A DNA stretch of 64,000 nucleotides, taken from Pseudomonadota bacterium. GTDB lineage: Bacteria > Pseudomonadota > Gammaproteobacteria > Steroidobacterales > JBCBZW01. Positions 5,931 to 23,141 of the stretch are shown one piece after another (within the stretch, counting starts at the first letter, position 1; the number at the start of each line of letters is the position of its first letter). Below the pieces are notes generated by a model, which was given only the letters and a program-made list of their open reading frames with translations, did no database searches and was not told the DNA's origin. Position numbers and translations under genes: made by a program. The stretch spans positions 1-64,000 of the forward strand of contig JBCBZW010000006.1 in assembly GCA_039815145.1 (NCBI GenBank). Direction: 5' to 3'.

Positions 5931-7766
5931 CAGTGGGACAGCACCGCGCCGGTGCTCACGAGCACGCCGGCGGGCGTCTCCGACCACTCCCTGGCGATGT
6001 CCTCTACGGTAGTGAACGGCGACGGCGTCGGCTCGCTCGAAGGCGGCCTGGTGACCGTGCGGGCGATCGCCGCCGACGGCAGCGACGGCGTGGTTCACGC
6101 CTCGAGCACCGGCGTCGGCGTGGACGGTGGCGCCATCAGCTCTCAGATCGACACCAGCGAGTCGCTCATCCTGGACTTCGAGGGCTATGCCTCGAACATC
6201 ACCCTCACCACCTCGCGCCAGTACGCCAACGAGGGCGGCGCCGGCCTGCACGAGGAAGGTGAGTGGATCGCCCTCGACAGCGATGGTAACGAAGTCGCCC
6301 GAGGTCCCCTGGCCATCGATCAGAACGGCACCAACGTGGGCGCCCACGAGTACGCCTATGAGATCGACGCAGGCGAAGCGATCAGTCAGCTGGTGATCCA
6401 GGGCACGCGCTACGCCTTCTCCGACTTCGCCGTGAAGCAGATTGAGTTCCGCCACCACGAGGTGGCGGAGATCGGCGATGACACGAGCTACCAGTTCGAT
6501 GTGGCGGGCGATGCCGCGGCCGGCAGCATCGTCGGCCAGGTGAGCGCCTTCGACGTGGACGGCGATTCGCTCACCTACGAGATCGTCTCCGGCAACGACG
6601 ATGGCCACTACCGCATCGATGCCAGCACCGGCGAAGTCTTCCTCAACGATGACGCCGACACGGTCCGCGACGGCGACCCGCGCGAAGCCCAGCAAACCCT
6701 GACCGTGCGCGTGAGCGACGGACGCGGCGGCGAGGACACCGCGCAGGTCGAGCTGACCCTCGAAGCAGACATCGCCGATCCTTACACGATCCCCGACGAG
6801 AACGCTTTCGGCACCGACGCGGATATCGCCGGCAGCGGTACGGTCACGGGCACGGACGCCGCGGAACACATCGTCACCGGCGGTGGCGGCGACGACGTCA
6901 GCGCGGGCGGCGGCAACGATCGGGTGGAAGGCGACATCGGCAACGACACCCTGCGCGGCGAAGGCGGCGACGACTACCTCGCCGGCCAACAGCAGAACGA
7001 CACGCTCTACGGCGGCGATGGCAACGACACGCTCCTCGGCGGCGATGGCAGCGACGTACTGCACGGCGATGCCGGCGATGACCTGCTGGTGGGCGACGGT
7101 GGCAACGATCAGCTCTACGGCGGCACCGGCGACGACATCCTCCACGGCGGCCGCGGCGACGACACCGCCGAAGGTGGCGACGGCTCGGACGTGTTCGTCT
7201 TCAGTGCCGATGACGGCACGGACACCTTCAGCGGCGGTGCCGGCGACAACGACATCGTGCACCTGGAGATCGCACCGGACGCGACCGATCAGCCCTTCAC
7301 GGTCACCGTCGACGGGCAGGAGGTCGCCTACTCCTTGAGCGACGGCGTGATCGAGCTCGACCAGGACACGGCGGGCACGGTCACCTTCGAGAACGGCGCA
7401 CAGCTGAACTTCGACGGCGTCAACCGCATCCAGTTCGGCAGCGCCGAGACCGACGCCGACCAGACCTTCACCGGCACCGCGGGCGATGACACGGTCAACG
7501 GCGGCGACGGCGATGACCTCTACCAGTTCTTCGCCATGGATACGGGCGTGAACAGCTTCGACGGTGGTACCGGCTGGGACTCGGTGGAGCTGGAGGTCCC
7601 GGCGGGCGCCGACGACACCCCGTGGACCATCGAAGTGGACGGCGAGACGGTGAGCTACGATCTAGACGCCGGCACCGTCGACCTCGACCCTGACTCGAGC
7701 GGCACCATCACCTACGACGACGGCAGCCAGCTGGAGTTCGAACGCCTCGACAACATCTTCTGGTAG
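1..7766 (+). CDS. Giant cadherin-repeat RTX adhesin, 5' truncated
   Basis: The reading frame is open from base 3, and the repeat pattern continues upstream, so the true start lies outside the window. The TTG at base 15 sits in the middle of a repeat and is not a start. The visible 2,587 or so residues comprise: one partial and 18 complete cadherin-like units of about 106 residues (to about base 5930); a non-repetitive beta-rich segment (about 5930-6470); one divergent cadherin-like unit (about 6480-6775); a block of GGxGxD-type RTX calcium-binding repeats (about 6860-7205); and two related C-terminal units ending in FERLDNIFW. Acidic Asp/Gly motifs such as DDDG and DADG fit calcium-rigidified modules. 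The RTX tail is the usual type I secretion signal region, and exporter genes follow directly. Role by family: surface adhesion or biofilm formation, LapA-like. Ligand and N-terminal retention module cannot be seen. Confidence 0.9.
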   Translation, partial: VEYSLSANPNDAFAIDADSGVVTVADPSGLDFESAQTMQIEVTATSEDGSTSAQTFDIAITDHDEFDVSAVSDTNGDANTINEGAAIGDTVGVTAFASDDDGATNGVEYSLSANPNDAFTIDADTGVVTVADPSGLDFESAQSMQIEVTASSEDGSTSSQTFDIAITDDDEFDVSAVSDTDGSANTIAENASAGDTVGVTAFASDADGTNNGVEYSLSTNPNAAFAIDADSGVVTVADPSGLDFESAQSMQIEVTATSDDGSTSTQTFDIAITDHDEFDISAVSDTDGGANTVIETASAGDTVGVTAFASDGDGTDDVQYSLSANPGDAFAIDADSGVVTVADPSALDFETAQSMQIEVTATSDDGSTATQTFDIAITDDDEFDVSAVSDTNATANTVSENASVGDTVGVTAFASDDDGTTNGVQYSLANNPNDAFAIDADSGVVTVADPSGLDFETAQTMQIEVLATSDDGSTSSQTFDIAITDHNEFDISALSDVWGSSRTVSEEDPDGDSVFRVTAEDQDGTNNGVTYELTENPGGAFRIDSNGTVRIDDADAIDFEASPEIQIEITATSEDGSSTSTQYTVTVTDINEFDVTPVTDTDATANSISENVSAGDTVGVTAFASDGDGSNDDVTYTLTDNPNDAFAIDADSGVVTVADPSAIDFEADESMRIEVTATSEDGSTSSQRFTIEINDFDEFDVSAISDTDDAANTVKENAVDGVYVGLTASAADDDATTSEVTFSLSDDANGTFAIDAETGEVTVADASQLDFESAQTLRIEVTATSEDGSVSTQEYDIAIGDHNEFHVTMPSDTDATANSIAENASTGDLVGVTVFADDADASNDDVSYELISNPNSAFAIDPSSGVVTVADPNGLNFESSRSMRIEVRATSEDGSSTTESFDISVTDIDEFDITAVSDADGAANTVSEHAIEGTRVGVTAFADDADGSNSDVTYTLTSNPGDAFAIGASNGVVTVADSSALDFESSTSMQIEVTATSADGSSSVQTFDIAITDHDEFHVSRITDDDGGANTVSTTASAGDTIAVTAQADDADGTNSDVTYTLSDDAGGAFTVDGTSGIVTVADPSALAHGTAQIEVTATSQDGSSTTQLFDIDVVDPAHGGGGGGGGGGGGGVVDDHDVSAISDTDGDANIVSEHAGEGVTVGIAAFADDADSADSVSYSLSGNPGDAFAIDATTGVVSVSDSSAIDYETASTIQIEVTATSTDGSTSTQTFDITIADHDEFAIKPVSDTDTDANTVSEQASVGDTVGITAFATDDDGSNNGVTYSLADDAGGAFAIDPSSGVVTVADPSAIDYEADASMRIEVTATSDDGTSTTQSFSVAVTDHDEFDVGPITDSDASNPTILENAPDGLRVGITASASDADGSNSSITYSLSENPGSAFAIDADSGVVTVADSDALDYEAGETVQIEVTATSADGSSSTQTFDITLGDHDEFHVSGLSDTNGADNLVSENAGAGDQVGLTVFAVDEDGTNSDVSYELLSDAGGAFAIDADSGVVTVADPSALDFENRDTMRIEVQATSEDGTTSSRTFRISIGDHDEFDVTAVSDIDGSDNLVGENAENGAYVGVTAFAFDADGSNSDVTYSLTQNPSDAFAIDPVTGEVTLADSSAIDHETASSMQIEVTATSTDGSTSAQTFDIEIGDHDEFNIGSISDVDGGSNEVSETAAVGASVGIQAFASDGDGTDNVTYSLTHNQDDAFAIDPVTGEVTVADPSALNFEGDNTMRIAVRAESDDGSRSSRWYTVNVTDENEFSVTPISDTDAAANSISEDVSAGDSVGITAFASDDDGSNSDVTYSLTQNPNDAFAIDPETGEVTVADPNAIDAENATSMQIEVTATSEDGSTSTETYDIDVVDVDEFDASAVSDADAGANQVFDTANAGDTVGVTASSVDADAGDSVTYALNDDHGGAFVIDENTGEITVGDEDALAALGGDSVDLEVTATSTDGSSSVQTFSVDVQWDSTAPVLTSTPAGVSDHSLAMSSTVVNGDGVGSLEGGLVTVRAIAADGSDGVVHASSTGVGVDGGAISSQIDTSESLILDFEGYASNITLTTSRQYANEGGAGLHEEGEWIALDSDGNEVARGPLAIDQNGTNVGAHEYAYEIDAGEAISQLVIQGTRYAFSDFAVKQIEFRHHEVAEIGDDTSYQFDVAGDAAAGSIVGQVSAFDVDGDSLTYEIVSGNDDGHYRIDASTGEVFLNDDADTVRDGDPREAQQTLTVRVSDGRGGEDTAQVELTLEADIADPYTIPDENAFGTDADIAGSGTVTGTDAAEHIVTGGGGDDVSAGGGNDRVEGDIGNDTLRGEGGDDYLAGQQQNDTLYGGDGNDTLLGGDGSDVLHGDAGDDLLVGDGGNDQLYGGTGDDILHGGRGDDTAEGGDGSDVFVFSADDGTDTFSGGAGDNDIVHLEIAPDATDQPFTVTVDGQEVAYSLSDGVIELDQDTAGTVTFENGAQLNFDGVNRIQFGSAETDADQTFTGTAGDDTVNGGDGDDLYQFFAMDTGVNSFDGGTGWDSVELEVPAGADDTPWTIEVDGETVSYDLDAGTVDLDPDSSGTITYDDGSQLEFERLDNIFW
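3361..3399 (+). repeat. Polyglycine tract (13 Gly) inside adhesin
   Basis: Thirteen consecutive GGN codons (mixed GGC, GGG, GGT) encode an uninterrupted glycine run between cadherin-like units 10 and 11. It replaces the usual DHDEF boundary, and the next unit resumes at DDHDVSAISD. The mixed codons argue against a simple slippage artefact. It probably acts as a flexible hinge dividing the stalk. Confidence 0.9.
6860..7205 (+). repeat. RTX nonapeptide repeat block
   Basis: Successive GGxGNDxL-type nonapeptides (for example GGDGNDTLL, GGTGDDILH) form a calcium-binding beta-roll near the C terminus of the adhesin. This is the family hallmark of type I secretion substrates and agrees with the ABC/HlyD genes immediately downstream. 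Confidence 0.92.
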
Positions 7767-7801: not shown

Positions 7802-7955
7802 TGCGCGACCTGTGACCTGGCGCACACGCCAGGCCTCGCCCCAGCGATTTAACTCAAGTCCTGCTGATTCGCGCCGTCTATTGGCACAAGCCATAAGGTG
7901 CGGTCCGAGCCGCATGCCTTGGTGTGGGCAAATCACAGGACGGCGGCGGGAGAAG

Positions 7956-9713
7956 ATGGGGAAGGCAGCGAGTTTGAGCAGTCCGTCGTTGACCGGCTCG
8001 GCCACCAAGGCCTGGCGGCGCGCCGACGTGCTCGCCGCGTCCGTCTGCCTCAACCTCCTCGCCCTTGCCATGCCCTTGGTGGTGCTCCAGCTCTACGATC
8101 GCATCATCCCCCAGCAGGCGGTGGAGACCCTGGCGCTGCTGACCTCCGCCCTGGTCGTCATCACGGCGGTGGAGACGGGCCTGCGCATCGCCCGCTCGAA
8201 GCTACTGAATTTACAAGGTGCGCGCTACGAGCACGCCGCGATGATGCGGGCGATCGATCGCCTCCTCGGCATGGAGCTCGTGGCCTTCGAGGCCCACGCC
8301 AAGGGCAGCTACCTCGACCAGTTCGACGCCATCAGCCAGACCCGCGACTTCTACCACGGCAACACGATGCTGACGATGGTGGACATGCCCTTTGGCCTGC
8401 TCTTCCTGGGCCTCATCTGGACCTTCGCCGGCTCCCTGGTGTTGATCCCCGTGGCCATCGTCACGATCTTCACCCTCGTGTCCATCATCGCCGGCCGCCG
8501 CCTGCAGGCCGCCATCACCGAGCAGGACACCCAGCTCGAGCGACGCCGCAACTTCCTCATCGAAGTGCTGCAGAGCATTCACACGGTGAAGGCGAGCACG
8601 ATGGAGAAGCAGATCCAACGCCGCTACGAGCGCCTGCAGGGCTCCGCTGCACAAGCCGTGTACACGCTCACCACCACCAACAGCATGGTCACGGGCATCG
8701 GCGCCACCTTCTCCCAGGCGGTCATGGTGCTGTTCGTCTCCGTGGGTAGCGTGTCGGCGATCAACGGTGAGATCAGCGTCGGCGCCCTCGCCGCCAGCAC
8801 GATGCTCGCCGGCCGCGTGCTGCAACCGGCCCTCGGCGCCATGAGCTTCTGGACCCAGCGCCAGAGCATCGAGCTCGCCCGCGAGAAGCTGGAGAAGTTC
8901 ATGGCCCTGCCCATGGAGGGCTTGAACGGCAAGCAACCGCTGAAGATGCGCGGCGGCGTGAGCCTGCGCGAGGTGAGCTTCAAGCACCCCTGGATGGACG
9001 GCAACCTCATCGACGGCGTCAACCTCGAGGTGGCGCCCGGCGAGGCCATCGCCATCTCCGGCGAGAGCGGCACCGGCAAGAGCACCCTCCTCGACCTGAT
9101 GATGGGCTTCACCCACCGCGACAGCGGCGAGATTCTCTTCGACGGCCAGAACCTCGATTCGCTGGAGAAATCGAACCTGCGCAGTCAGATCGGCCTGGTG
9201 CCCCAGAACGGCATCCTGTTCAACGGCACCCTGCTCGAGAACATGACGCTCTTCCGCGAAGGCGAGGCCATCAGCGAAGCCCTCCAGTTGGCCCGCATGA
9301 TCGGTTTGGACGAGTTCATCACCCGGCTCCCGGACGGCCTGGAAACCCAATACCACAGCGGCGCCCAGGGCACGCTGCCCGATGGCTTGCGCCAACGGCT
9401 GGTCATGGTGCGAGCCCTGATCGGCCGACCAAAGCTGATCCTCTTCGATGACGCCGACTCGGGCCTCGACGCAGAGGCACAACTGCAGGCGGTGGAGATG
9501 CTGTTCCGCCTGCGCGATGAGGGCGCCACGCTGATCATCGTGTCGAACCGCTCCTATGTGCTGATGCGCTGTGACCGCCAGCTGACCCTGGCCAACGGCA
9601 AGCTCTACGAGAGCGACGGCTTCGGCGGCGCCGTGCCGGCAGAGCTGCTGGGGGGCGAACCGGCACCGGCCGGCACGTCACCGGACGAAGCGCTCGGGAG
9701 TGAGTCGGCATGA
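7956..9713 (+). CDS. Type I secretion ABC permease/ATPase (first of pair)
   Basis: A 585-residue exporter half-transporter: membrane domain in the N-terminal half (starting SVCLNLLALAMPLVVLQLYD), nucleotide-binding domain in the C-terminal third. ATG 7956 is preferred over the upstream in-frame GTG at 7812 because GGGAGAAG precedes it and the protein then has the usual PrtD-like length. Walker A is GESGTGKST. The other ATPase motifs are unusual: LPDGLRQR stands where LSGGQ is expected, Walker B reads LILFDDADSGLD with Asp at the catalytic Glu position, and the switch His is Asn (VSNRS). It has no C39-like N-terminal domain. It overlaps the next ABC gene by 4 bp (ATGA), so the two are probably co-translated and may pair as a heterodimer. 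Likely role: inner-membrane motor exporting the adjacent RTX adhesin. Confidence 0.85.
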   Translation: MGKAASLSSPSLTGSATKAWRRADVLAASVCLNLLALAMPLVVLQLYDRIIPQQAVETLALLTSALVVITAVETGLRIARSKLLNLQGARYEHAAMMRAIDRLLGMELVAFEAHAKGSYLDQFDAISQTRDFYHGNTMLTMVDMPFGLLFLGLIWTFAGSLVLIPVAIVTIFTLVSIIAGRRLQAAITEQDTQLERRRNFLIEVLQSIHTVKASTMEKQIQRRYERLQGSAAQAVYTLTTTNSMVTGIGATFSQAVMVLFVSVGSVSAINGEISVGALAASTMLAGRVLQPALGAMSFWTQRQSIELAREKLEKFMALPMEGLNGKQPLKMRGGVSLREVSFKHPWMDGNLIDGVNLEVAPGEAIAISGESGTGKSTLLDLMMGFTHRDSGEILFDGQNLDSLEKSNLRSQIGLVPQNGILFNGTLLENMTLFREGEAISEALQLARMIGLDEFITRLPDGLETQYHSGAQGTLPDGLRQRLVMVRALIGRPKLILFDDADSGLDAEAQLQAVEMLFRLRDEGATLIIVSNRSYVLMRCDRQLTLANGKLYESDGFGGAVPAELLGGEPAPAGTSPDEALGSESA

Positions 9714-11893
9714 GCGCGGCTGCAGGTAACTTGAACGTGGGGCAGGCCCCGGCTAAGGAGCAGCCCGCAGCGCGCGCGCCCTACAAGCCGCTCAGCGAGA
9801 AGATCGCCGACGCCATTCGCGCCGGCGACTACGAGCGGCTCGGCGAAATCTCGCCTTACGCAGGTTGCCTCCTGCCCCTGCTGCACTCCCTGGGCTGGGT
9901 GACCTGCGATCGCGACATCCTCGAGGCGCTACCGCACTTCTCCGACACGGTCGACCTGGTCACCCTGCGCAACATGCTGGTGGAGCTCGGCTACCGCAGC
10001 GATCCCCTCGATATCGACACGCACAGCGTGCCGCCGGACATGCTGCCCTGCCTCTACTCCACCCAGGGCGGCCATCTCTACGTGCTCAAGGAACGGACCG
10101 AACTCGGCGTGCGCGCCTTCTGCTCGCAGACCCGAGGCGAGGTGCTCCTCGACGCGCCGCTGAAAGGCACGGCCTACCTCTTCACGGACACGCACGTGAC
10201 CCACGCAGTGGTGCCCGAGCGGCCGGACGAGGACTGGTTCGGCATGCTTCTGCGACGCTTCCAGGGCCTGATCAAGCACCTGCTCGGCACCACCTTGCTG
10301 CTGAACCTGATCGCCCTGGCCGTGCCCATCTACATCATGCTGGTGTACGACCGCCTCATCGGCACGCGCGATGTGACCGCGGTGCCGGCCTTCGTGCTCG
10401 GCATCACCTTCGTGCTCGCCGTGGAGTTCGGCCTGCGCTACCTACGGGCGAAGATGTTGGGGATCACGGGCAGTCGCATCGACTACCTGATCGGCACCGA
10501 GACGGTGCGCCAGATCCTGTCTCTGCCGCCGATCATGACGGAGCGCTCGACGATCACCTCGCAGCTTTCGCGCCTGCGCCAGTTCGACTCCGTACGAGAG
10601 TTCTTCTCGGGGCCGACGGCCAACCTGGTGCTCGAGTCGCCCTTCGTGCTGATCTTCGTCATCGTGATCGGCATTCTCGGCGGCTGGCTCGCCGCCATTC
10701 CCCTGCTCACGGCCCTCGCCTTCGCCCTGGTGACCGGCGCGGCCCTGCCGCGCGTACGCGAACTCACCCGCCACGCGGGGGCGGCGAAGACCAACCGCGA
10801 GCAATCGCTCATGGAGACGCTGAACGGCCTGCGCGAGCTGAAGTCCCTCGGCGCCGAGGCGATCTGGCATGAGCGCTTCCGCGAAACGTCCGCCGATACC
10901 GCCATGGCCCACCTGCGCACGGCGGACGAGCAAGCCAGCCTGCAGGCGGTCACCACCGCGATGACCAAGCTGGCTGGCACGGTGGTCATCGCCGTCGGCG
11001 CCAGCCAGGTGATCGAGGGCACCATCACCGTGGGCGCGTTGATCGCCATCCTCGCCCTGCTGTGGCGAGTGCTCGGTCCGCTCCAAGCCCTGTGCATGAC
11101 CTACGTGCGCTTCGAGCAGATCCTCATGGGCGTGCAGGGCATCAATCAGCTGATGCGCCTGAAGCCCGAGCGTCACCGCGGCCGCTCGGTGATGATCAAG
11201 GAAGACTGTCAGGGCGCGATCCGCTTCGACCGTGTGAGCTTCCGCTACAGCCGTGAGGCCGACCCCGCCCTGATCGGCGTGAGCTTCACGATCGAGCCTG
11301 GGGAGTTCGTGATCCTTCGCGGCCAGAACAGCAGCGGCAAGTCGACGATCTTGAAGCTCATCGGTGGCCTCTACGCCGTGCCCAGCGGCACCGTGAGCAT
11401 CGACGGCGTGGACACGCGCCAGTTCAACACGGACGAGCTTCGCCGCCTGATCGCCTACATGCCCCAGCACCCGCGCCTGTTCCACGGCACCCTCGCGCAG
11501 AACCTGCGCCTGAAGAACATCCTCGCCACGGAGGAAGACCTGCGCGCTGCCTGCGAGGCCGCCGGCGTGCTGGAGGACGTGCTGGCGCTGCCCGGCGGAT
11601 TAGAAGTTCGCATCGGTGACCACACCACCCGCGCCCTGCCCAATGGGCTGATCCGCGGCATGTGCCTCGCGCGCACGCTCCTGCGCCCATCGCCGATCCT
11701 CCTGCTCGATGAGCCCACCGCCGGCGTGGACCGCGTGCGCGATCGCCAGTTGACCGAACAATTTCGAAAGCTAAGGGGGAAGATGACCGTGGTGATGGTC
11801 TCCAACCGCACCAGTCACGTCGCGTTGGCGGACAAGGTCATCGATCTCGAGAACGGTATGATCAGTTCCATCTCAAGACCGGGTCAGGCGTAA
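9710..11893 (+). CDS. Type I secretion ABC permease/ATPase with C39-like N domain
   Basis: A 727-residue exporter protein. Residues of about 20-160 form an extra cytoplasmic domain placed where RTX exporters carry a C39-like substrate-recognition domain; no clear protease Cys/His motif is visible, so it is probably non-proteolytic. Membrane segments follow (LLGTTLLLNLIALAVPIYIM onward), then the ATPase domain with Walker A GQNSSGKST and a good Walker B, ILLLDEPTAGVD. The signature is degenerate (LPNGLIRG) and the switch His is Asn (VSNRT), as in its neighbour. The ATG overlaps the upstream stop (ATGA). The likely partner is the preceding ABC protein and the HlyD-like gene 3 bp downstream. Role by context: selection and export of the RTX adhesin. 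Confidence 0.85.
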   Translation: MSAAAGNLNVGQAPAKEQPAARAPYKPLSEKIADAIRAGDYERLGEISPYAGCLLPLLHSLGWVTCDRDILEALPHFSDTVDLVTLRNMLVELGYRSDPLDIDTHSVPPDMLPCLYSTQGGHLYVLKERTELGVRAFCSQTRGEVLLDAPLKGTAYLFTDTHVTHAVVPERPDEDWFGMLLRRFQGLIKHLLGTTLLLNLIALAVPIYIMLVYDRLIGTRDVTAVPAFVLGITFVLAVEFGLRYLRAKMLGITGSRIDYLIGTETVRQILSLPPIMTERSTITSQLSRLRQFDSVREFFSGPTANLVLESPFVLIFVIVIGILGGWLAAIPLLTALAFALVTGAALPRVRELTRHAGAAKTNREQSLMETLNGLRELKSLGAEAIWHERFRETSADTAMAHLRTADEQASLQAVTTAMTKLAGTVVIAVGASQVIEGTITVGALIAILALLWRVLGPLQALCMTYVRFEQILMGVQGINQLMRLKPERHRGRSVMIKEDCQGAIRFDRVSFRYSREADPALIGVSFTIEPGEFVILRGQNSSGKSTILKLIGGLYAVPSGTVSIDGVDTRQFNTDELRRLIAYMPQHPRLFHGTLAQNLRLKNILATEEDLRAACEAAGVLEDVLALPGGLEVRIGDHTTRALPNGLIRGMCLARTLLRPSPILLLDEPTAGVDRVRDRQLTEQFRKLRGKMTVVMVSNRTSHVALADKVIDLENGMISSISRPGQA

Positions 11894-11896
11894 GCG

Positions 11897-13264
11897 ATGG
11901 CCACGCCCGTCAACAGCATCGTCACCCGTCAGGGGCGCCAGCACGCCGGCATGCCGCGTGCCCGGGCCCGCTACCTGGTGCAAGCCCTCTCCCTCGAGGA
12001 GCGCGACAACACCAGCTTGATCAGCCAGGGCATCCTGCTCACGACGGTGCTGCTGATCGGGTTGATCGTGTGGTCTGCCTTCACCGAGGTGAACGAGATC
12101 GCCCGGACCTCCGGCGAAGTCGTGCCGGCGGGTCTGGTGCAATCGATCCAGCACCTCGAGGGCGGCATCGTCGCCGAGCTCCAGGTGAACAACGGCGCCC
12201 GCGTGCAGGCCGGTGATGTGCTCCTGCAGATCGCCGATGCGGGAGCGCGCAGCGAACTCGCCCAGCTGGCGACCCGGCGCGCGTCCCTGGACCTGCGCAT
12301 GCGTCGTCTCGATGCCCTCCTCGCCGGTGAAGAGCCGGACTACGATGGGCTCCAGGCACCCTACACCGCGGAGATGATCGCGCTCCAACGCGAGGTGTTC
12401 ACCACCCAGCGCAGCAGCGGTCTCGCCCAGCTGCAGCTGATCCGCGCCGAGCGCGGTCGCCTACTCGAGGAGCGCGCGGCGAGGGCCGCCCGCGTCGACG
12501 CGCTGATGCGCGAGGTCGCCCTCGTGCGCGGCGAACAGGAGCGCCAAGAGGTCTTATTAGCTCGCCAGTTGGTGGCCGCGGCGGACGTGACCAACGTGCG
12601 CTTGACCGCCCTGCGCACCCAGGGCGATCTGCACCAGGCCCAGGGCGAGTGGGGATCGCTGCAGCGCCAGATCGAGGCCAGCGAGCAACGCGAGCAGGAG
12701 CTGCGCAGCCGCCGGCGCGAGGGCTGGAACCTCGAACGCGAGGAGGTCAAGGCGAACCTCGATGAGGTGCAGGCGCGCCTCGCGGCCCTGCGCGATCGCA
12801 CGGAGCGCCTGGACCTGCGCGCGACCGTGGATGGCGTGGTGCAAGCCCTCGCCGTGAGCGGTCCGGGAGCGGTCATTCAGCCTGGTCAGACCGTGCTTCA
12901 GATCGTGCCCGGCGAGGGCCGCATGTTGGTCCATGCCCGGGTGTCGCCGGACGACATCGGCCACCTGGTGGTGGGCCAATCCGTGGACGTGAAGGTGAGC
13001 AGCTTCGAGCCCCAGCGCTACGGCACCCTGGTCGGCGAGCTGACCCAGGTCTCCCCGTCGACCCAGCTCAACGAGGAACGCCAGCCCTACTACGAAGCTC
13101 ACATCGAGCTACAGCACCTCTACCTTGGCAACGATCCCGCCAAGCACCAGCTGGTGCCGGGCATGCTGGTGCAGGCCGATATCATCACCGGCCGTAAGAG
13201 CATCCTCGACTACCTCCTGAAACCCGTCTACCGCGGTTTCAGCGGAGCCCTGAAGGAACGCTGA
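11897..13264 (+). CDS. HlyD-family type I secretion adaptor
   Basis: A 455-residue periplasmic adaptor, LapC/PrtE-like. One N-terminal membrane segment (about residues 38-58, ILLTTVLLIGLIVWSAFTEV) is followed by a lipoyl-like half (HLEGGIVAELQVNNGARVQAGD), a long charged helical hairpin (about 120-300), the second lipoyl half (VDGVVQALAVSGPGAVIQPG) and a beta-barrel C terminus with the family sequence LVPGMLVQADIITG. It starts 3 bp after the second ABC gene and closes the secretion operon. It should bridge the ABC pump to an outer-membrane TolC-type channel, which is not encoded in the window. No LapD/LapG-type release genes are visible. Confidence 0.9.
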   Translation: MATPVNSIVTRQGRQHAGMPRARARYLVQALSLEERDNTSLISQGILLTTVLLIGLIVWSAFTEVNEIARTSGEVVPAGLVQSIQHLEGGIVAELQVNNGARVQAGDVLLQIADAGARSELAQLATRRASLDLRMRRLDALLAGEEPDYDGLQAPYTAEMIALQREVFTTQRSSGLAQLQLIRAERGRLLEERAARAARVDALMREVALVRGEQERQEVLLARQLVAAADVTNVRLTALRTQGDLHQAQGEWGSLQRQIEASEQREQELRSRRREGWNLEREEVKANLDEVQARLAALRDRTERLDLRATVDGVVQALAVSGPGAVIQPGQTVLQIVPGEGRMLVHARVSPDDIGHLVVGQSVDVKVSSFEPQRYGTLVGELTQVSPSTQLNEERQPYYEAHIELQHLYLGNDPAKHQLVPGMLVQADIITGRKSILDYLLKPVYRGFSGALKER

Positions 13265-13271
13265 TAGAGCC

Positions 13272-16200
13272 CTACGGCCGCGTGCGACCGCGGCCGCGAC
13301 CCGGCCGCGTGTTGTGCTGGGAGGCGATACGCTCACCGTCCGCCCGGCTCTGGGTCAGGGTCACACGGCCCCTGGACGCCTGCTCCATGGCCCCCGACTC
13401 GAGATAGCCCAAGGCCTCGGCCGAATCCAGCAGGTAAGCATCCCAAAAGGCGATGCTCGCGCTCAGGGTGTAGCGCACGATGTCCGCATCGGGATGGGCC
13501 CGCGAACCGGACATGGTGCCGCCGGTGGCACCGCCGAAGTCGTGGTAGGCGCCGTCGATGAACAGCAAATGCTTCTGATCGGTGCCCGCGTAGACGAAGG
13601 GATCGATCCGCCAGCTCACGCCATCGCCGCCGCGGCCGGGGTCGTTGGACCCCGTCATCACCATCATCGGCACCTGCAAGGTGTCCCAGGCGCGCTCATC
13701 CAGGAGCTGCCCCCGACCCTGGGGTGACATCAGCAGGGCCGCGTCCACCCGTTCGTCGCCGAGGTTGACGGGGCGCTGGGTGCGCACATCGAGGATCTTC
13801 GTGCCGGCCACCAGCTGCGCCGTGTGCGCGCCGTAGGAGTGCCCGCCGACGCCGATCCGCGACCGATCGATCAGACCCTTCAGAGCCGGCGCTGCGCCCT
13901 CGATGGCATCTAGGGAGTCGAGCATGAGGTGCACGTCCTCCGGACGATCACGCCAATCGCGAAACACCGAGGTGTCGCGTTGGGTCGTGCCCAAGGCGGC
14001 GGAGTCGCGATGGTTCGCCTGCAGCACCACGTAGCCATGGCTCGCCCAGTGCTCCACCAACGGCTGGTAGTTCTCGTTCGACGCCCAGGCGCCGTGGGCG
14101 AATACGATCAGGGGACGCGGCGCCGGTGCGGCGCGCGGGTAGGTCACACGCACCTGCAGCTGCTTGTTGCGAGCACGGTCGTCGAGGTCGACCCGGCGCA
14201 CCACATCGAAGGCGTAGGGGCCGGGAGCGAGCTTGTAGTAGTCCGAGCCGTTCCAGGGCGCGGCCGTAGGGGCAGGTGCATCGCGTTCCACTGCGGGCAA
14301 GGGCGTTGGCGCCTGCGCTGCGGCGACCGCGACCGTAGGCCCGCGCGTGGTCACGTGCTCTTGCCGTACTCCCGCGCTTTCCAGGCGCTCGGCCTGAAGC
14401 CAGGCCAGGGCATCCTGGTTGCCGCCGACGTAGGCGTCGAGGAAGGCCATGACCGATTGCTCGATCTGCGCGTGGTGCTGCGGATTGCGCGGGCCGGCTG
14501 GGTACCAGGGCGTCGAGTCCGTGAAGGCGTGGTGGCCGCCGCCGGCGAGGTCGACCAGGTATTTCTCGTCCGATACCGCCGTGGTGTAGGCGGTGATCCG
14601 GACGTCCGGATTGCGCTTCACACCGTCGTACCAGAGGAAGTCTCGCTCGCTGGCCACCACCAGCAGGGGCAGGTCGATGCCGGACCAGGAGTCGGGCTGC
14701 AGCATGTCCGTCCCCTTGCCGTTACCGGCACGCGACGGCTGAGCCAACCCCAAGGGCACCTGGGGCCCCAGCAACATGATCGCGTCCACGCGATCGTCGC
14801 GGCTGGAGAAACGCTCGTTGCCCGGCAGCTTGGCCGTCAGTCCGCCCATCGCGGAGGCAATGGAGGAGCCTGCGCACTGGCCAGCGGCGACCAGGCGGTC
14901 GGCGTCCATGCGCCCGCGCAGCAGCTCCGACTCGATGGCATCGGCCACCACCTGGTCGATGACGAAGTGGGTGTCGGCCGCCTTCTGCTGCGCATTGTCC
15001 ACCGTGTTGAGGCCACGGAAGTTGTTCCGCGCAACGGCGGCATCGCTGCCCTCATGGTTCATGAAGATGACCGCGTAGCCGTTCGAGGCCAACGCGTCTC
15101 CTAGGTAGCCGTAGGAGTCGCGCGATTCCCCCAGGCCGTGGGAGAACACGACGACGGGCCAGCCGTCCCCGAGGGGGCTGGCGCTCGGCGCGTAGACGGT
15201 GACCGGGACGTCCCGACGGCGCTCGCGATCGGTGAGCGTCAAGCGCTCGTGGCGCACGGGCAGGATGCCGCTCGCCGGCACGTAGTCGCCGCCCGCGCCG
15301 CCTGCCACTCGAGGTGCATCGCCGACGCGGCTGCCGGGCTGGGTGGAGGCATCGGCAATCCCTGCGCTGTCGCGCTCCACCTGCTCGCTGGCAAGGGCAG
15401 TCAGGGCCTCGGCATCGCCACGCAGGTGCGCATCCCAGAACCACAGCTCCGAACGCAGCACGTAGCTCTCGAGCCCCGCATTGACCACGCCCGAGAAGCG
15501 ACCGTTGCTGCTGCCGCCCTCGTCGAACAGACCACCGAAGCGACCATCCATGCCGTTGACGTACACCAGGTACTTATCCGGTGGCTGCGCAAAGCGGAAG
15601 GGCTCCGTGCGCCAGCTTGCCGGGTTGCCCGTGCGCCGCGAGGGCAGTTCCGTGCCGGTGATGACCATCATCGGCCGGTCGATGTCTTGCCAGCTGTTCT
15701 CGTCCATGAGGCCGCCGCGCCCCTGCGGCGCCATCAGCAGGGCGGCAGCGACGCGCGGATCTGCGTAACGCTCGCCCGAGGTCGGCACCGCCCCCACCAT
15801 GAGCGATGCGCCCATGGCGCCGATGAGGTGCCCGCTGACCCCGACGGCCTCGAGGTCGAGCTTGCCGTCCAGGCGGCGCTCACGACGCCCGATGTCCTGC
15901 AGGTTGTCGAGGACGTAGGCGAAGTCCTCCGGTCGCTCGCGCCAGTTGCTGAGCGCATCGCGATTGCCGTCGGACAGACGCCCGACGGAGTCCTCATGCT
16001 GCAACTCCGCCACCACGTAGCCCTGACCCGCGAGGAAATCGTGGTGGGGTCGATAGGCCTCGTCGCTGCCGGCGAGGTACGGGGAGAAGAGGATGAGCGG
16101 GAACGGACCCTCGCCCAGGGGGAAGGTCAGCTTGAGATCCACCGCGTCGCGACCCTTGCCCACCTGAATCGTGCGGCGCGCCGTGCCGTAGCGCTCGCCG

Positions 16201-16610
16201 GGCAAGGCCACCGGCTTGGCCGTGGTCGGATCGACCGCACTCGCCACCGCAGTTTCCGCCGGCGGCGGCGCCGAGCGTTGGCCGCGCCCTCCGCCGCTGC
16301 TGCCTCCGCCGCCGTTGCGCGCGCCGCGGCCGCGACCTGAGATCGCGGACATCTCCTCGTAGCTGATGACGCCATCGCCATCGCCATCCAGGTAATCAAA
16401 GGCGGAGAGCAGGCGTTCGCGGCCGGCGAGTTCGCGGCGCGTGAGCTGTCCATCACCATTGCTATCGAGGCGATCGAAGATCATCTGCGGGGACACACGC
16501 CCCCCGGCACCGCCCTGTGCGCAAACGCTCGACGTGCCGAGCGCACCCACGAGCAGCGTCACGTACAGGGCGATCGCCGTCAGGAGAGGTTTTCTGAGCG
16601 GATTCGCCAT
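13272..16610 (-). CDS. Secreted EF-hand protein with three alpha/beta-hydrolase domains
   Basis: ATG 16610 is preferred over an upstream in-frame start at 16655: AGGAG lies about 10 nt before it and it begins a clear signal peptide ending near SVCAQ. Product of 1,112 residues. Two EF-hand loops follow the signal (DSNGDGQLTRRE, DGDGDGVISYEE), then a Gly/Ser-rich linker and three tandem chlorophyllase/dienelactone-hydrolase-like domains. Nucleophile elbows differ: domain 1 has GHLIG (Leu262, no nucleophile), domain 2 GQCAG (Cys579), domain 3 GHSYG (Ser925). Domain 3 has a matching acid (SNDPG) and His (GAYHDFGG); in domain 1 these positions read TELPS and GMDGRFGG, so its triad is lost. Domain 2 has GGHHAF. 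Likely a periplasmic or secreted ester hydrolase with one classical site, one Cys-type site and one decayed scaffold domain. Substrate unknown. Confidence 0.82.
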   Translation of the reverse strand: MANPLRKPLLTAIALYVTLLVGALGTSSVCAQGGAGGRVSPQMIFDRLDSNGDGQLTRRELAGRERLLSAFDYLDGDGDGVISYEEMSAISGRGRGARNGGGGSSGGGRGQRSAPPPAETAVASAVDPTTAKPVALPGERYGTARRTIQVGKGRDAVDLKLTFPLGEGPFPLILFSPYLAGSDEAYRPHHDFLAGQGYVVAELQHEDSVGRLSDGNRDALSNWRERPEDFAYVLDNLQDIGRRERRLDGKLDLEAVGVSGHLIGAMGASLMVGAVPTSGERYADPRVAAALLMAPQGRGGLMDENSWQDIDRPMMVITGTELPSRRTGNPASWRTEPFRFAQPPDKYLVYVNGMDGRFGGLFDEGGSSNGRFSGVVNAGLESYVLRSELWFWDAHLRGDAEALTALASEQVERDSAGIADASTQPGSRVGDAPRVAGGAGGDYVPASGILPVRHERLTLTDRERRRDVPVTVYAPSASPLGDGWPVVVFSHGLGESRDSYGYLGDALASNGYAVIFMNHEGSDAAVARNNFRGLNTVDNAQQKAADTHFVIDQVVADAIESELLRGRMDADRLVAAGQCAGSSIASAMGGLTAKLPGNERFSSRDDRVDAIMLLGPQVPLGLAQPSRAGNGKGTDMLQPDSWSGIDLPLLVVASERDFLWYDGVKRNPDVRITAYTTAVSDEKYLVDLAGGGHHAFTDSTPWYPAGPRNPQHHAQIEQSVMAFLDAYVGGNQDALAWLQAERLESAGVRQEHVTTRGPTVAVAAAQAPTPLPAVERDAPAPTAAPWNGSDYYKLAPGPYAFDVVRRVDLDDRARNKQLQVRVTYPRAAPAPRPLIVFAHGAWASNENYQPLVEHWASHGYVVLQANHRDSAALGTTQRDTSVFRDWRDRPEDVHLMLDSLDAIEGAAPALKGLIDRSRIGVGGHSYGAHTAQLVAGTKILDVRTQRPVNLGDERVDAALLMSPQGRGQLLDERAWDTLQVPMMVMTGSNDPGRGGDGVSWRIDPFVYAGTDQKHLLFIDGAYHDFGGATGGTMSGSRAHPDADIVRYTLSASIAFWDAYLLDSAEALGYLESGAMEQASRGRVTLTQSRADGERIASQHNTRPGRGRGRTRP
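13275..13296. terminator. Inverted repeat at convergent gene ends
   Basis: CGGCCGCG / CGCGGCCG, 8-bp stem with 6-nt loop, lies within the last codons of the hydrolase and just after the HlyD stop. No T tract. A possible bidirectional barrier, but it also encodes the Arg/Gly-rich C terminus, so it may be incidental. Confidence 0.25.
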
Positions 16611-19019: not shown

Positions 19020-20789
19020 ATGAACCGTGACGCTGAGCTGACGCCAACGGGATTCAACGACGAACTGCCCCTGCGGAGCGATGGCTTCGCCAACCTCGTG
19101 GAAGCACTCGACTACGCCGCTCAGGGTAAGGCCGGGTACAACTTCTACGACGGCAAGGGCGCTTTGGAACATCGCCTCACGCACGCCGACCTGCGCCAGG
19201 AAGCGCAGCTGTTGGCGCGTAAGCTGCTGGGCCTCGGCCTGCAGCGGGGTGATCGCGTTGCCATCGTGGCCGAGACCGATCCGCTGTTCATCCGCTTCTT
19301 CTTCGCTGCCCAGTACGCTGGGTTGCTGCCGGTGGCATTGCCCGCTGGCCTGCAGCTCGGTGGCGGGGAAGCGTGGGTGAGGCAGATCCGCCAGATGCTG
19401 ATGTCGTGCGACGCCGCGGTTGCGGTGGCGCCGTCGTCCCATGCCGCCCTCCTCGACTCTGCATGCGAGGGACTCGATCTGGTCCTCGCCGGTGAAGCGG
19501 ACGCATTCGATGCGCTCCCGGCGGATTACGACCTACCCTTCCAGCCGTTCACGGGCGATGAGCCGGCGTACCTGCAGTACACCTCCGGGAGCACGCAGTT
19601 CCCGCGCGGTGTCGAGGTATCGCAATCGGCGGCACTCACCAACCTGCGAGAGATCTGCCGGTACGGCCTGAAGCTCACGAGTAAAGATCGTTTCGTCGGC
19701 TGGTTGCCGTTCTATCACGACATGGGCCTGGTCGGTTTCGTCCTCGTGCCCCTCGGCAGCCAACTCTCGGCGGACTACTTGAGCCCGCGCACCTTCGCCA
19801 TGCGTCCACGCTTGTGGCTGAAGCTGCTGTCGGACAATCGCGGCACCATCTCCTCCAGCCCGCCCTTCGGCTACGCCCTCGTGGCGAAGCGTTTGCGGGT
19901 GGCGGATAGCGAGCGCTACGACCTGTCCAACTGGCGGGCCGCCTGCGTGGGCGCCGAGCGCGTGCCCCGCGGCCCCCTCGAGCAGTTCGCCAAGCTGCTC
20001 AAGGACGCCAAGTTCGATCCGAAGGCCTTCGTGCCCTGCTACGGCATGGCCGAGTGCGCCCTCGCCGTCAGCTTCGTGCAGATGGACCACGGCGTGAGCA
20101 TCGACACGGTCGATAAGATCGAGATGACGGACCTCGGCAAGGCTACGCCTGTAGCCGCGGACCATCCGGACGATCAGACCCTCGAGTTCGTTGACTGCGG
20201 CAACCTCCTGCCCAGCTACGAGCTGGCGATCCGCGACGATGAGGGCAATGAACTCCCCGAGCGCACCTGTGGGCGGATCTGCCTGCGCGGGCCCTCGGTG
20301 ATGACCGGCTACTTCCGTGATCCGGAAGCCACCGCAGCCGTGCTCTCCGAAGACGGCTGGCTGGATACGGGCGACATCGGCTACCGCATCGGCGAGCAGC
20401 TGGTCATCACGGCCCGTCGCAAGGACGTGATCATCATCAACGGTCGCAACATCTGGCCACAGGATCTCGAGTACATCGCGGAGAGCTCGCCAAAGGTGCG
20501 CATGGGCAACGTGTCCGCCTTCTCGGTAAACGAAAGCGACGGCCCCGAGAGCGTGGTGATCGTGGTGGAGTCCCGCCATCAGGATGCGGAGCTCGCCGAG
20601 GAGATCGTCGAACGGGTGCAGAAGCAGTTCGGCATTCGCGTCCACGTCGACCTCGTGCCCCCGCGCACCCTACCGCGCACCTCGTCGGGCAAGCTGTCGC
20701 GCTCACGCGCCAAGCTCGATCATCTCGAGCGTCAGGCAGCTAAGACTCCTGTTCACCAGGACTTCGCTACCAGCGGCAGCGTTGCCTGA
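19020..20789 (+). CDS. Fatty acyl-AMP ligase / acyl-ACP synthetase (sphingolipid locus)
   Basis: A 589-residue adenylate-forming enzyme of the FAAL type. The AMP-binding loop YTSGSTQFPRGVEV starts at residue 187. GWLPFYHDMGLVGFVL is typical of FAALs. The hinge/C-terminal motifs GWLDTGDIGYR (about 446) and RRKDVIIINGRNIWPQDLE follow. Such enzymes activate a fatty acid as acyl-AMP and load it onto an acyl carrier protein; an ACP gene is two genes downstream. It leads a tight operon: the next gene starts at the base after its stop. From memory of the Caulobacter ceramide cluster, an acyl-ACP synthetase of this kind accompanies spt, acp and cerR there, so I assign it to ceramide synthesis. Which acyl chain it loads (for SPT or for the ceramide synthase) is inference. 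Confidence 0.87.
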   Translation: MNRDAELTPTGFNDELPLRSDGFANLVEALDYAAQGKAGYNFYDGKGALEHRLTHADLRQEAQLLARKLLGLGLQRGDRVAIVAETDPLFIRFFFAAQYAGLLPVALPAGLQLGGGEAWVRQIRQMLMSCDAAVAVAPSSHAALLDSACEGLDLVLAGEADAFDALPADYDLPFQPFTGDEPAYLQYTSGSTQFPRGVEVSQSAALTNLREICRYGLKLTSKDRFVGWLPFYHDMGLVGFVLVPLGSQLSADYLSPRTFAMRPRLWLKLLSDNRGTISSSPPFGYALVAKRLRVADSERYDLSNWRAACVGAERVPRGPLEQFAKLLKDAKFDPKAFVPCYGMAECALAVSFVQMDHGVSIDTVDKIEMTDLGKATPVAADHPDDQTLEFVDCGNLLPSYELAIRDDEGNELPERTCGRICLRGPSVMTGYFRDPEATAAVLSEDGWLDTGDIGYRIGEQLVITARRKDVIIINGRNIWPQDLEYIAESSPKVRMGNVSAFSVNESDGPESVVIVVESRHQDAELAEEIVERVQKQFGIRVHVDLVPPRTLPRTSSGKLSRSRAKLDHLERQAAKTPVHQDFATSGSVA

Positions 20790-21713
20790 TTGCACATCGC
20801 ACTGACCGGGGCGACCGGCTTCATCGGTCGCCGCCTGCAACGTGCCCTGCTTCCCCTCGACCATCGGCTGACCGCCCTCGTCCGCCCCGACCAACACCAG
20901 CGGCGCCCTGAACTGCAGGCGGGCGTCGAGCAAGCGCCTTTCGATCAACTCGACGTAGACGCCTGGCGTAGCCTCCTCGACCGCGAGGACGCCCCGGAGG
21001 TGCTGCTGCTGCTCGCCGGCGCCGTTCGAGGGCGCACCTTCGAACAGTTCGCCGAGGTCAACGAGCGCCCCTTCAGGGCCCTCGCCAGCGCCTTGGCCGG
21101 CCGCGCTGACCCGCCCCGCGTCCTGCTAATGTCATCCCTCGCCGCCAGCCAACCCAGCTTGTCGCCCTACGCGGCGAGCAAGCGGGCCGGCGAAGACGCC
21201 TTGCGCGACCGTGCGGTCACCGTACTGCGCCCACCCGCCGTCTACGGCCCTGGCGATCGCGAGCTGGCTGCCCTGTTCGAGACCATCCACAGCGGCTGGG
21301 TGCCGCGCCCGGGGCCGGCCGATCAGCGCATCTGCTTCCTCCACGCGGACGACCTCGCCAGCGCCGTGATCGCCTGGCTGCAGCGGACCCCAGGGCCCGA
21401 CCTGCAGGAGATCTTCGCCCTCCACGACGGCGCCCCCGATGGCTACTCCTGGCCGCAGATCGCCGCCGCGATCGCCCCGCACAAGCGAGCGCACATCCTG
21501 CCCGTACCGAGCGCCGTGCTGCGCGCGGTGGCGACGGCCAACCTGCTGGCGGCCACCGCCCTGCGATACTCCCCGATGCTCACTCCCGGCAAGGTGAGAG
21601 AGCTGGGACACCCTCGCTGGCTCTGCGATAATCGCGCCTTCACGGAAGCGACTGGCTGGACGCCGGCGGTGGATCTGGCCACCGGCACGGCGCGCCTGAG
21701 GAGCGACACCTGA
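20790..21713 (+). CDS. NAD-dependent epimerase/dehydratase-like reductase (CerR-like)
   Basis: A 307-residue extended SDR-fold protein. The TTG at 20790 directly follows the upstream stop and gives the nucleotide-binding motif GATGFIGRR at residues 7-15, so no other start fits. The catalytic YxxxK is YAASK at residues 127-131, followed by RPPAVYGPGDREL. By position between the acyl-AMP ligase and the ACP and next to serine palmitoyltransferase, it matches the reductase (CerR) of bacterial ceramide clusters, which acts on the keto group left by SPT. In bacteria this step is proposed to occur after N-acylation. The SDR assignment is firm; the substrate is inferred from neighbours. An alternative is a sugar-nucleotide epimerase, but no sugar genes are adjacent. 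Confidence 0.82.
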   Translation: MHIALTGATGFIGRRLQRALLPLDHRLTALVRPDQHQRRPELQAGVEQAPFDQLDVDAWRSLLDREDAPEVLLLLAGAVRGRTFEQFAEVNERPFRALASALAGRADPPRVLLMSSLAASQPSLSPYAASKRAGEDALRDRAVTVLRPPAVYGPGDRELAALFETIHSGWVPRPGPADQRICFLHADDLASAVIAWLQRTPGPDLQEIFALHDGAPDGYSWPQIAAAIAPHKRAHILPVPSAVLRAVATANLLAATALRYSPMLTPGKVRELGHPRWLCDNRAFTEATGWTPAVDLATGTARLRSDT

Positions 21714-21714
21714 G

Positions 21715-21951
21715 ATGACTGAGATCGAACAAACCTTGAGCGAACTGCTCAGCGGCTTCCTCACCGAGGGGCAGAACATGATCGACGCCGCCACGCCCAT
21801 CAACACGCTGGGGCTCGAGTCGGTGGTGATCATGCAGTTCGTCGCCGAGGTGGAAGACCACTTCGATATCAACATCGATCTCGACAGCCTGGCGCAGATT
21901 CACACGCTGAACGACCTGGCCAAGGTCGTCGTCACGCAGGGGGGCGCATGA
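21715..21951 (+). CDS. Acyl carrier protein (sphingolipid-specific)
   Basis: A 78-residue acidic four-helix carrier protein. The phosphopantetheine attachment site is Ser36 in LGLESVVIM, a variant of the DSL motif with Glu before the Ser. It starts one base after the reductase stop and overlaps the SPT gene by 4 bp (ATGA). A dedicated ACP next to a FAAL and an SPT implies acyl-ACP rather than acyl-CoA as the donor in this pathway, as in other bacterial ceramide clusters. Distinct from housekeeping AcpP, which normally sits with fab genes. Confidence 0.88.
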   Translation: MTEIEQTLSELLSGFLTEGQNMIDAATPINTLGLESVVIMQFVAEVEDHFDINIDLDSLAQIHTLNDLAKVVVTQGGA

Positions 21952-23141
21952 GCCTGCTGGAGAAGTTCGCGCAGACGCGCGCCAAGCGCGACGCGCTCGC
22001 GCAGATGCCGATCAACCCCGTGGCGGTGCCGATCGAGCGAGCGATCGATGCCACCACTGCGCAGATCGACGGGCGCGAAGTCATCATGGCAGGCACCAAC
22101 AACTACCTGGGCCTGACCTTCGAGCAGGAGTGTATCGAGGCTGGGCAACGCGCCCTCGCCGAGTTTGGCACCGGCACTACCGGCTCGCGCGTGGCCAACG
22201 GTAACTACACGGACCACGAGGCCCTCGAGCAAGACCTAGCGGATTTCTTCGGTTACCCCTACTCCATGCTTTTCTCCACGGGCTACGGGGCGAACCTCGG
22301 TACCATCGCCGCCCTCGTCGGGCCGGGCGATTGTGTGATGCTCGACGCCGACGCCCACGCGAGCCTCTACGACGCCTGCCGCCTCTCCGGTGCCGACGTT
22401 TTCCGCTTCCGCCACAACGATCACGCGGATCTCGACAAGCGCTTACGGCGCTTGGGCGAGCGCGCGAAGCGCACCCTCGTCGCCATCGAGGGGCTCTACT
22501 CCATCCTCGGGGACTACCCCTCTCTCGAACCCTTCTGTGAGGTGTGCGAGCGCTACGGCGCGCTGCTGCTGGTGGATGAAGCCCACTCCCTCGGCACCAT
22601 GGGCGAGCATGGCCGGGGCTTGGCGGAAGCCGACGGTGTCCTCGACCGGGTGGACTTCCTGGTGGGCACGTTCTCCAAGAGTCTCGGCGCCACCGGCGGC
22701 TTTTGCGTGAGCCGCCACGAGGAGCTCTCCCTCTTCCGCTACACCTCGCGCCCGTTTATCTTCACCGCCTCACCCTGCCCCTCCGTGGTCGCCAGCACAC
22801 GTGCAGCCCTGCGCCTGCTGCGCACGCAGCCGGAGCGCCGCGAACGCCTGTGGCAGCACGCGCGCGGCCTGTACGAGAGCTTCACAGCCCTCGGCCTGAC
22901 CCTGGGTCCGCAGCCCTCGCCCGTGGTGGCGGTGCGCTGCCCCAGCGCGGAGGCAGCCCTAGGCGTGTGGCAGCGGCTACTCGAGCACGGCGTCTACACA
23001 AACCTCATCGTGCCGCCCGCCTCGCCCGACGGCTCGAGCCTGATTCGCTGCAGCCTGAGTGCGGCGCATCGGCCCGAACAGGTGGAGACCATCAAGCACG
23101 CGATGGCGGCCGCCACCGCGGATCTGATCGCGGCGGCCTGA
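21948..23141 (+). CDS. spt: Serine palmitoyltransferase (alpha-oxoamine synthase family)
   Basis: A 397-residue PLP enzyme of the AONS/KBL/SPT family. The PLP lysine is K244 in TFSKSLGATGGF; DEAHSLGTMGEHGRG and GSRVANGNYTDHEALE are further family motifs, and DAHASLYDACRLSGA marks the substrate pocket. It condenses an amino acid, here probably serine, with an acyl thioester to give a 3-keto sphingoid base. The ATG overlaps the ACP stop. SPT rather than biotin synthesis KAPA synthase is favoured because FAAL, ACP and reductase precede it, no bio genes are near, and ceramide-pathway candidates lie downstream. First committed enzyme of the sphingolipid pathway, cytoplasmic. Confidence 0.85.
   Translation: MSLLEKFAQTRAKRDALAQMPINPVAVPIERAIDATTAQIDGREVIMAGTNNYLGLTFEQECIEAGQRALAEFGTGTTGSRVANGNYTDHEALEQDLADFFGYPYSMLFSTGYGANLGTIAALVGPGDCVMLDADAHASLYDACRLSGADVFRFRHNDHADLDKRLRRLGERAKRTLVAIEGLYSILGDYPSLEPFCEVCERYGALLLVDEAHSLGTMGEHGRGLAEADGVLDRVDFLVGTFSKSLGATGGFCVSRHEELSLFRYTSRPFIFTASPCPSVVASTRAALRLLRTQPERRERLWQHARGLYESFTALGLTLGPQPSPVVAVRCPSAEAALGVWQRLLEHGVYTNLIVPPASPDGSSLIRCSLSAAHRPEQVETIKHAMAAATADLIAAA

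Follow-up and report, generated by a model that had tools for sequence, protein, structure and literature searches.

Is a polypeptide that carries leucine, cysteine and serine at the nucleophile positions of three homologous hydrolase domains a decaying gene, or an old arrangement in which the cysteine has taken over as a working nucleophile? The question is raised by an ORF of 1112 aa on the minus strand (16610 to 13272) of the 64,000-nucleotide stretch of DNA analysed here (the window). The encoded protein begins with a likely signal peptide, continues with two canonical EF-hands and ends in three alpha/beta-hydrolase domains (D1, D2 and D3; Table 1). A first-pass annotation had described three tandem hydrolase domains with Leu, Cys and Ser elbows behind an EF-hand head. 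The translation reads the same elbows: GHLIG in D1 (residues 260-264, Leu262), GQCAG in D2 (577-581, Cys579) and GHSYG in D3 (923-927, Ser925). The EF-hands have Pfam support, and both are canonical 12-residue Ca loops with the Ca-ligand positions filled. By eye, the translation offers a plausible cleavage site after Ala31. Cys579 is the sole cysteine of the presumed mature protein, the other one (C30) belonging to the presumed signal peptide. No promoter- or terminator-like sites were found near the hydrolase gene.

Table 1. Features of the hydrolase ORF, in coordinates of the window.
Feature	Position	Strand	Basis
Likely signal peptide, residues 1-31 (VCA/Q cleavage guess)	16518..16610	-	Translation reading: hydrophobic N-terminus
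Two EF-hands, loops D49-E60 and D75-E86	16326..16514	-	Pfam EF-hand_5 6.6e-9, EF-hand_1 2.8e-8
Domain 1 (D1), residues 136-430, putative pseudoenzyme	15321..16205	-	Alignment, dN/dS, AlphaFold2
Leu262 codon, D1 nucleophile position	15825..15827	-	Alignment
Domain 2 (D2), residues 446-770, Cys-elbow hydrolase domain	14301..15275	-	Alignment, tree, model
Cys579 codon, D2 nucleophile position	14874..14876	-	Alignment
Asp657 codon, D2 acid	14640..14642	-	Alignment
His693 codon, D2 catalytic His position	14532..14534	-	Alignment
Domain 3 (D3), residues 786-1112, canonical Ser/Asp/His and conserved Arg/Gly-rich tail	13275..14255	-	Alignment, Pfam
Ser925 codon, D3 nucleophile	13836..13838	-	Alignment
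Asp990 codon, D3	13641-13643	-	Alignment
His1023 codon, D3	13542-13544	-	Alignment

By BLASTP, each of the three domains is a homologue of the other two (E-values 1e-48 to 1e-18), with 38% identity between D1 and D3 and 28% for both D2-D3 and D1-D2; the elbows are thus not misaligned. In an alignment with 45 homologues, D3 exhibits the full catalytic set, namely Ser925, Asp990, His1023 and the HG oxyanion motif. D2 presents Cys579 together with Asp657, His693 and an intact SHG oxyanion motif, so that the His credited to this domain by the annotation is accompanied by the acid as well. D1 is without any recognised catalytic element: its triad positions are occupied by Leu262, Leu322 (beside Glu321) and Gly356, and its oxyanion HG is replaced by Pro177-Tyr178.

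AlphaFold2 models of D1 (pLDDT 88.8, pTM 0.91) and D2 (pLDDT 82, pTM 0.86), for which the input was the window and locus sequences alone, show an alpha/beta-hydrolase fold, with Leu262 and Cys579 exactly where the strand turns into the helix. The annotation had allowed for misaligned elbows, a possibility that falls away. Both models find their best structural alignments among PETases/cutinases, over about 240 residues with Z 25-28 and an rmsd of 2.2-2.6 A. The same fold is assigned to D3 by Pfam and homology. In a full-length alignment the single-domain relatives were all placed on D3, leaving D1 without depth.

A congeneric genome encodes an 86% identical orthologue, in which all three elbows and the catalytic-motif residues are unchanged, and Cys579 is likewise the only cysteine of the presumed mature protein. 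The overall dS between the two is 0.84. The dN/dS ratio is 0.107 for D1, 0.051 for D2 (the lowest of the three hydrolase domains), 0.076 for D3 and 0.043 for the EF-hands; in the two short linkers between the domains it reaches about 0.65. D1 had been seen as a case of coherent decay. Its acid, His and oxyanion HG are indeed gone together with the nucleophile, but it is catalysis and not the domain that was lost, as the dN/dS and the confident model indicate. D1 appears to be a pseudoenzyme, with its catalytic residues gone, its predicted fold kept and its sequence under selection. It should also be noted that the Arg/Gly-rich C-terminal tail (RPGRGRGRTRP; residues 1086-1112, 13275-13355 on the minus strand) is 96% identical in the congener, and is more conserved than the domains.

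The triple protein is known from two genomes, both of one genus and the only ones that the collection has of the window's family, and the architecture was found outside this genus in none of the 369 genomes of the class or the 196 of the order. Such a narrow distribution would suit a gene in decay, with Leu and Cys being recent random changes. The Leu and the Cys are, however, identical in the congener at a dS of 0.84 with dN/dS about 0.1, and the Cys elbow recurs at 39% identity in another phylum (see below). Both observations refute recent random change, which we consider practically dismissed. Nor do the homologues revert to Ser at all three elbows, an outcome that the annotation had named as fatal to its reading: the congener retains Leu/Cys/Ser.

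The gene neighbourhood is likewise conserved in the congener. To the left lies the gene of a giant protein (15-7766, plus strand, open to the left) made of cadherin repeats, with RTX calcium-binding repeats towards the C-terminal end (Pfam Cadherin 1.4e-177, HemolysinCabind 1.4e-19). Two ABC transporters and an HlyD protein come immediately after it (7812-13264). The group, which is convergent with the hydrolase gene, resembles a type I secreted adhesin system. To the right, on the plus strand (19020-23141), acyl-AMP-ligase-like, NAD-epimerase-like and aminolevulinate/serine-palmitoyltransferase-like genes, named by sequence reading, stand in a row that is conserved in the congener and possibly serves lipid synthesis.

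Single-domain relatives were obtained when 196 genomes from the order, 369 from the class and 398 from the phylum were searched. All 149 relative domains aligned over the elbow (fetched relatives longer than 200 aa, excluding the window/congener protein and the two-domain Myxococcota protein L140 described below) exhibit Ser at the nucleophile position. The elbow His preceding it (GH) is present in 147 of them; the corresponding residue in D2 is Gln578. The wider, unfiltered alignment contains one further row without Ser, a 572-aa ORF (L023) from another family of the class, the elbow of which is aligned as GYGYG in a weakly aligned region; the nucleophile may have been lost there too. Both genomes also encode the single-domain paralogue nearest to D3 (L010 and L016). 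In each species it keeps Ser and Asp but has Asn where the catalytic His would stand (GGYNNFGG), making it another possible dead or altered member of the family. The full-length query found no relative in the named genomes, and a search of plasmids gave only weak matches of less than 60% identity, the elbows of which were not inspected singly.

When one genome per species was scanned, the named relative that came nearest to D2 among the matches listed was a two-domain protein (L140) from a Deltaproteobacteria (Myxococcota) MAG, AB_03_Bin_128, on a contig of 11.8 kb (JAFCZD010000287.1). It is the only one of 80 relatives among the matches listed to exhibit a GQCAG elbow. There is hence at least one Cys member outside the genus among these matches, and more may exist. 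The first domain of this protein is 39-41% identical to D2, and contains a GQCAGSS elbow with Asp and His present. The second, 38% identical to D3, has a Tyr elbow (GAYIG), lacks the His and is dead. As in the window protein, a GQCAGSS Cys domain thus adjoins a dead domain. The domain order is nevertheless different (Cys-dead, against dead-Cys-Ser in the window protein); EF-hands and an active Ser domain are absent, and the N-terminus is that of a lipoprotein with a lipobox-like LMLGC. The annotation had proposed to look for the Leu/Cys/Ser pattern in homologues; beyond the congener, what recurs is this pair of a Cys elbow and a dead partner.

The three Cys domains (two orthologous D2 domains and that of the Myxococcota protein) share 29 residues, each of which is rare (<10%) in the 149 Ser relatives. 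Many of these lie in or beside active-site motifs: E495, Q578, C579, A580, S582, S583, W660, H694 and P701-P704. E495 follows the oxyanion motif, W660 the acid loop, and H694 and P701-P704 the His. The 29 residues include candidate compensating changes.

Maximum likelihood unites the Cys domains in a single clade (100/99). This clade is not an artefact of the elbow letters, as it is recovered at 99/98 when the catalytic motifs, elbow included, are masked. It sits among Ser enzymes that are PAF-acetylhydrolase/polyester-hydrolase-like. In the same tree, a relative (L129) from a genome of the window's class is almost identical to a Piscinibacter one (L165), which makes Gammaproteobacteria, as GTDB defines it, the probable class. 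D1 pairs with the dead domain of the Myxococcota protein at 92/91, and with moderate support (81/74) after masking; joining that dead domain to D3 instead is weakly rejected (p 0.03). The two dead domains are therefore probably one clade. A single clade of the three window domains, produced by duplication inside the gene, is rejected (AU test, p 1e-6), as is an independent duplication in the Myxococcota protein (AU test, p 4e-7). The clades of Cys domains and of dead domains suggest that the Cys domain and, probably, its dead partner travelled together while their order changed. Taken with the conservation in the congener and the Myxococcota protein itself, the Cys clade indicates an old Ser-to-Cys switch in which Asp and His were kept and a dead sister domain was coupled, rather than random decay.

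The support across phyla comes from this single Myxococcota MAG contig. A search of 192 genomes of its class and of 73 relatives gave no second copy; the gene is thus patchily distributed, and horizontal transfer or mis-binning of the contig is possible. The Cys lineage could then be younger than the split of the phyla. We judge this somewhat doubtful, given that the identity to D2 is only 39-41% and that both the architecture and the export type differ (a lipoprotein of two domains in the other order). The contig also carries an FHA/sigma-54 activator gene, which would be expected in Myxococcota. Even if a transfer or mis-binning did occur, the Cys lineages have long been separated, and the event would be compatible with the explanation that we prefer.

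What the protein does can be proposed from these residue patterns. We consider it rather probable that it is an esterase that is exported and binds Ca, in which one domain has a Ser site, one has a Cys site and one is a pseudoenzyme. D3 would be an ordinary serine esterase. D2 would represent an old lineage that exchanged its nucleophile for Cys, retained Asp and His and rebuilt the surrounding pocket; it would most likely be a Cys-His-Asp hydrolase (or an acyl-transfer enzyme) with a substrate of its own. D1 would be a sister domain that has lost catalysis and is retained for a role in binding, packing or regulation, and the EF-hands would most likely make folding or attachment outside the cell depend on calcium.

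A working Cys site is favoured over decay because Asp657, His693 and the SHG oxyanion motif are intact, the dN/dS of D2 is the lowest of the three and the pocket residues have changed jointly. The main rival is a D2 that is no catalyst at all, Cys579 being structural, redox-active or ligand-binding, D3 alone working, and D1 and D2 serving as scaffold or substrate-binding pseudoenzymes. It owes its place to the fact that hydrolases engineered from Ser to Cys usually lose activity (PMC6642262), and it is helped by the change of the nearly universal elbow His to Gln in D2 and by the adjoining D1 without a recognisable catalytic residue. Against it, the triad and pocket residues of D2 persist across phyla, whereas both dead domains have lost the His, D1 also the Asp. 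We hold a non-catalytic D2 to be unlikely.

A third reading makes D2 a Cys acyltransferase or polymerising enzyme in the manner of PHA synthase (Gx1Cx2G elbow), for example handing on an acyl group that D3 has freed. The GxCxG elbow and the Cys/Asp/His set of D2 do match those of PhaC (PMC5509742), and two unlike nucleophiles in one chain would suit such a hand-over. PhaC nevertheless has a CAP subdomain, no PHA-synthase Pfam model matches the window protein at E <= 1, and the nearest relatives match hydrolase families; this reading appears quite improbable. Returning to a hydrolytic D2, our fullest proposal is a tentative one: a natural Cys lineage within a PAF-AH/polyester-hydrolase-like serine family, having a rebuilt pocket, a catalytic Cys-His-Asp set and a dead sister partner in two phyla, in which the dead domain may tune or feed the Cys site.

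The group that evolved a cysteine-lipase in the laboratory raised the question of whether nature has enzymes of this type (PMC6642262). The window protein contains Ser, Cys and no-nucleophile versions of one domain in one chain, and both Ser relatives and an old Cys relative are available for comparison, so that the question becomes testable on a natural case. If the proposal is true, D2 would be nature's equivalent of the cysteine-lipases that laboratory evolution has produced. The protein also provides a clear case of a dead enzyme domain retained beside an altered one. Other alpha/beta hydrolases with a Cys nucleophile have been described before (dienelactone hydrolase, P91, PhaC), and dead alpha/beta-hydrolase domains are likewise of a known kind. 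The new part would be the coupling of a Cys and a dead domain in one presumably exported chain, together with the apparent serine-family ancestry.

Among known systems, the PAF-AH isoform II family (PF03403; Lp-PLA2, PDB 3d59, 5ye9) has its profile matched by D2 (42.2 bits) and D3 (45.7 bits), both above the cut-off of 20, with D1 below it at 17.9 bits. Lp-PLA2 is also the top Foldseek match of the D2 model. The window protein differs from this family in its three tandem domains with EF-hands and in an identity of only about 16%; the Ser nucleophile of the family, in GxSxG, is present in D3 only, D1 having Leu and D2 Cys. The cutinase/PET hydrolase-like proteins (PF12740; PDB 8x6v, 6ane) provide the best structural alignments of D1 and D2, although their nucleophile is Ser. 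D2 (18.4 bits) and D3 (18.1 bits) singly remain below the PF12740 cut-off of 28, the whole protein summing to 30.7. The same genome and order also contain single-domain esterases that are chlorophyllase/PAF-AH-like (L010, L011, L052 and others). They are 34-44% identical to D3 with a GHSxG elbow, but have a Ser nucleophile, and the ORFs read contain neither a second nor a third domain.

Dienelactone hydrolase (PF01738) and P91 (PMC9853848) have, like D2 (Cys579, Asp657, His693), a Cys-His-Asp triad on an alpha/beta-hydrolase fold. The annotation had likened the Cys of D2 to that of dienelactone hydrolase, and the likeness stands as an analogy. It does not extend to descent: D2 has no match to PF01738 at E 0.01, and the match of the whole protein (23.4 bits) falls in D3. 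No dienelactone hydrolases were seen among the top structural matches listed for the models, an absence that carries no weight. Another difference is that the window protein is presumed to be exported. The grouping of the D2 clade with Ser relatives suggests that D2 reached Cys separately, from within a serine family; if D2 works, it would work like dienelactone hydrolase or P91 (PMC9853848).
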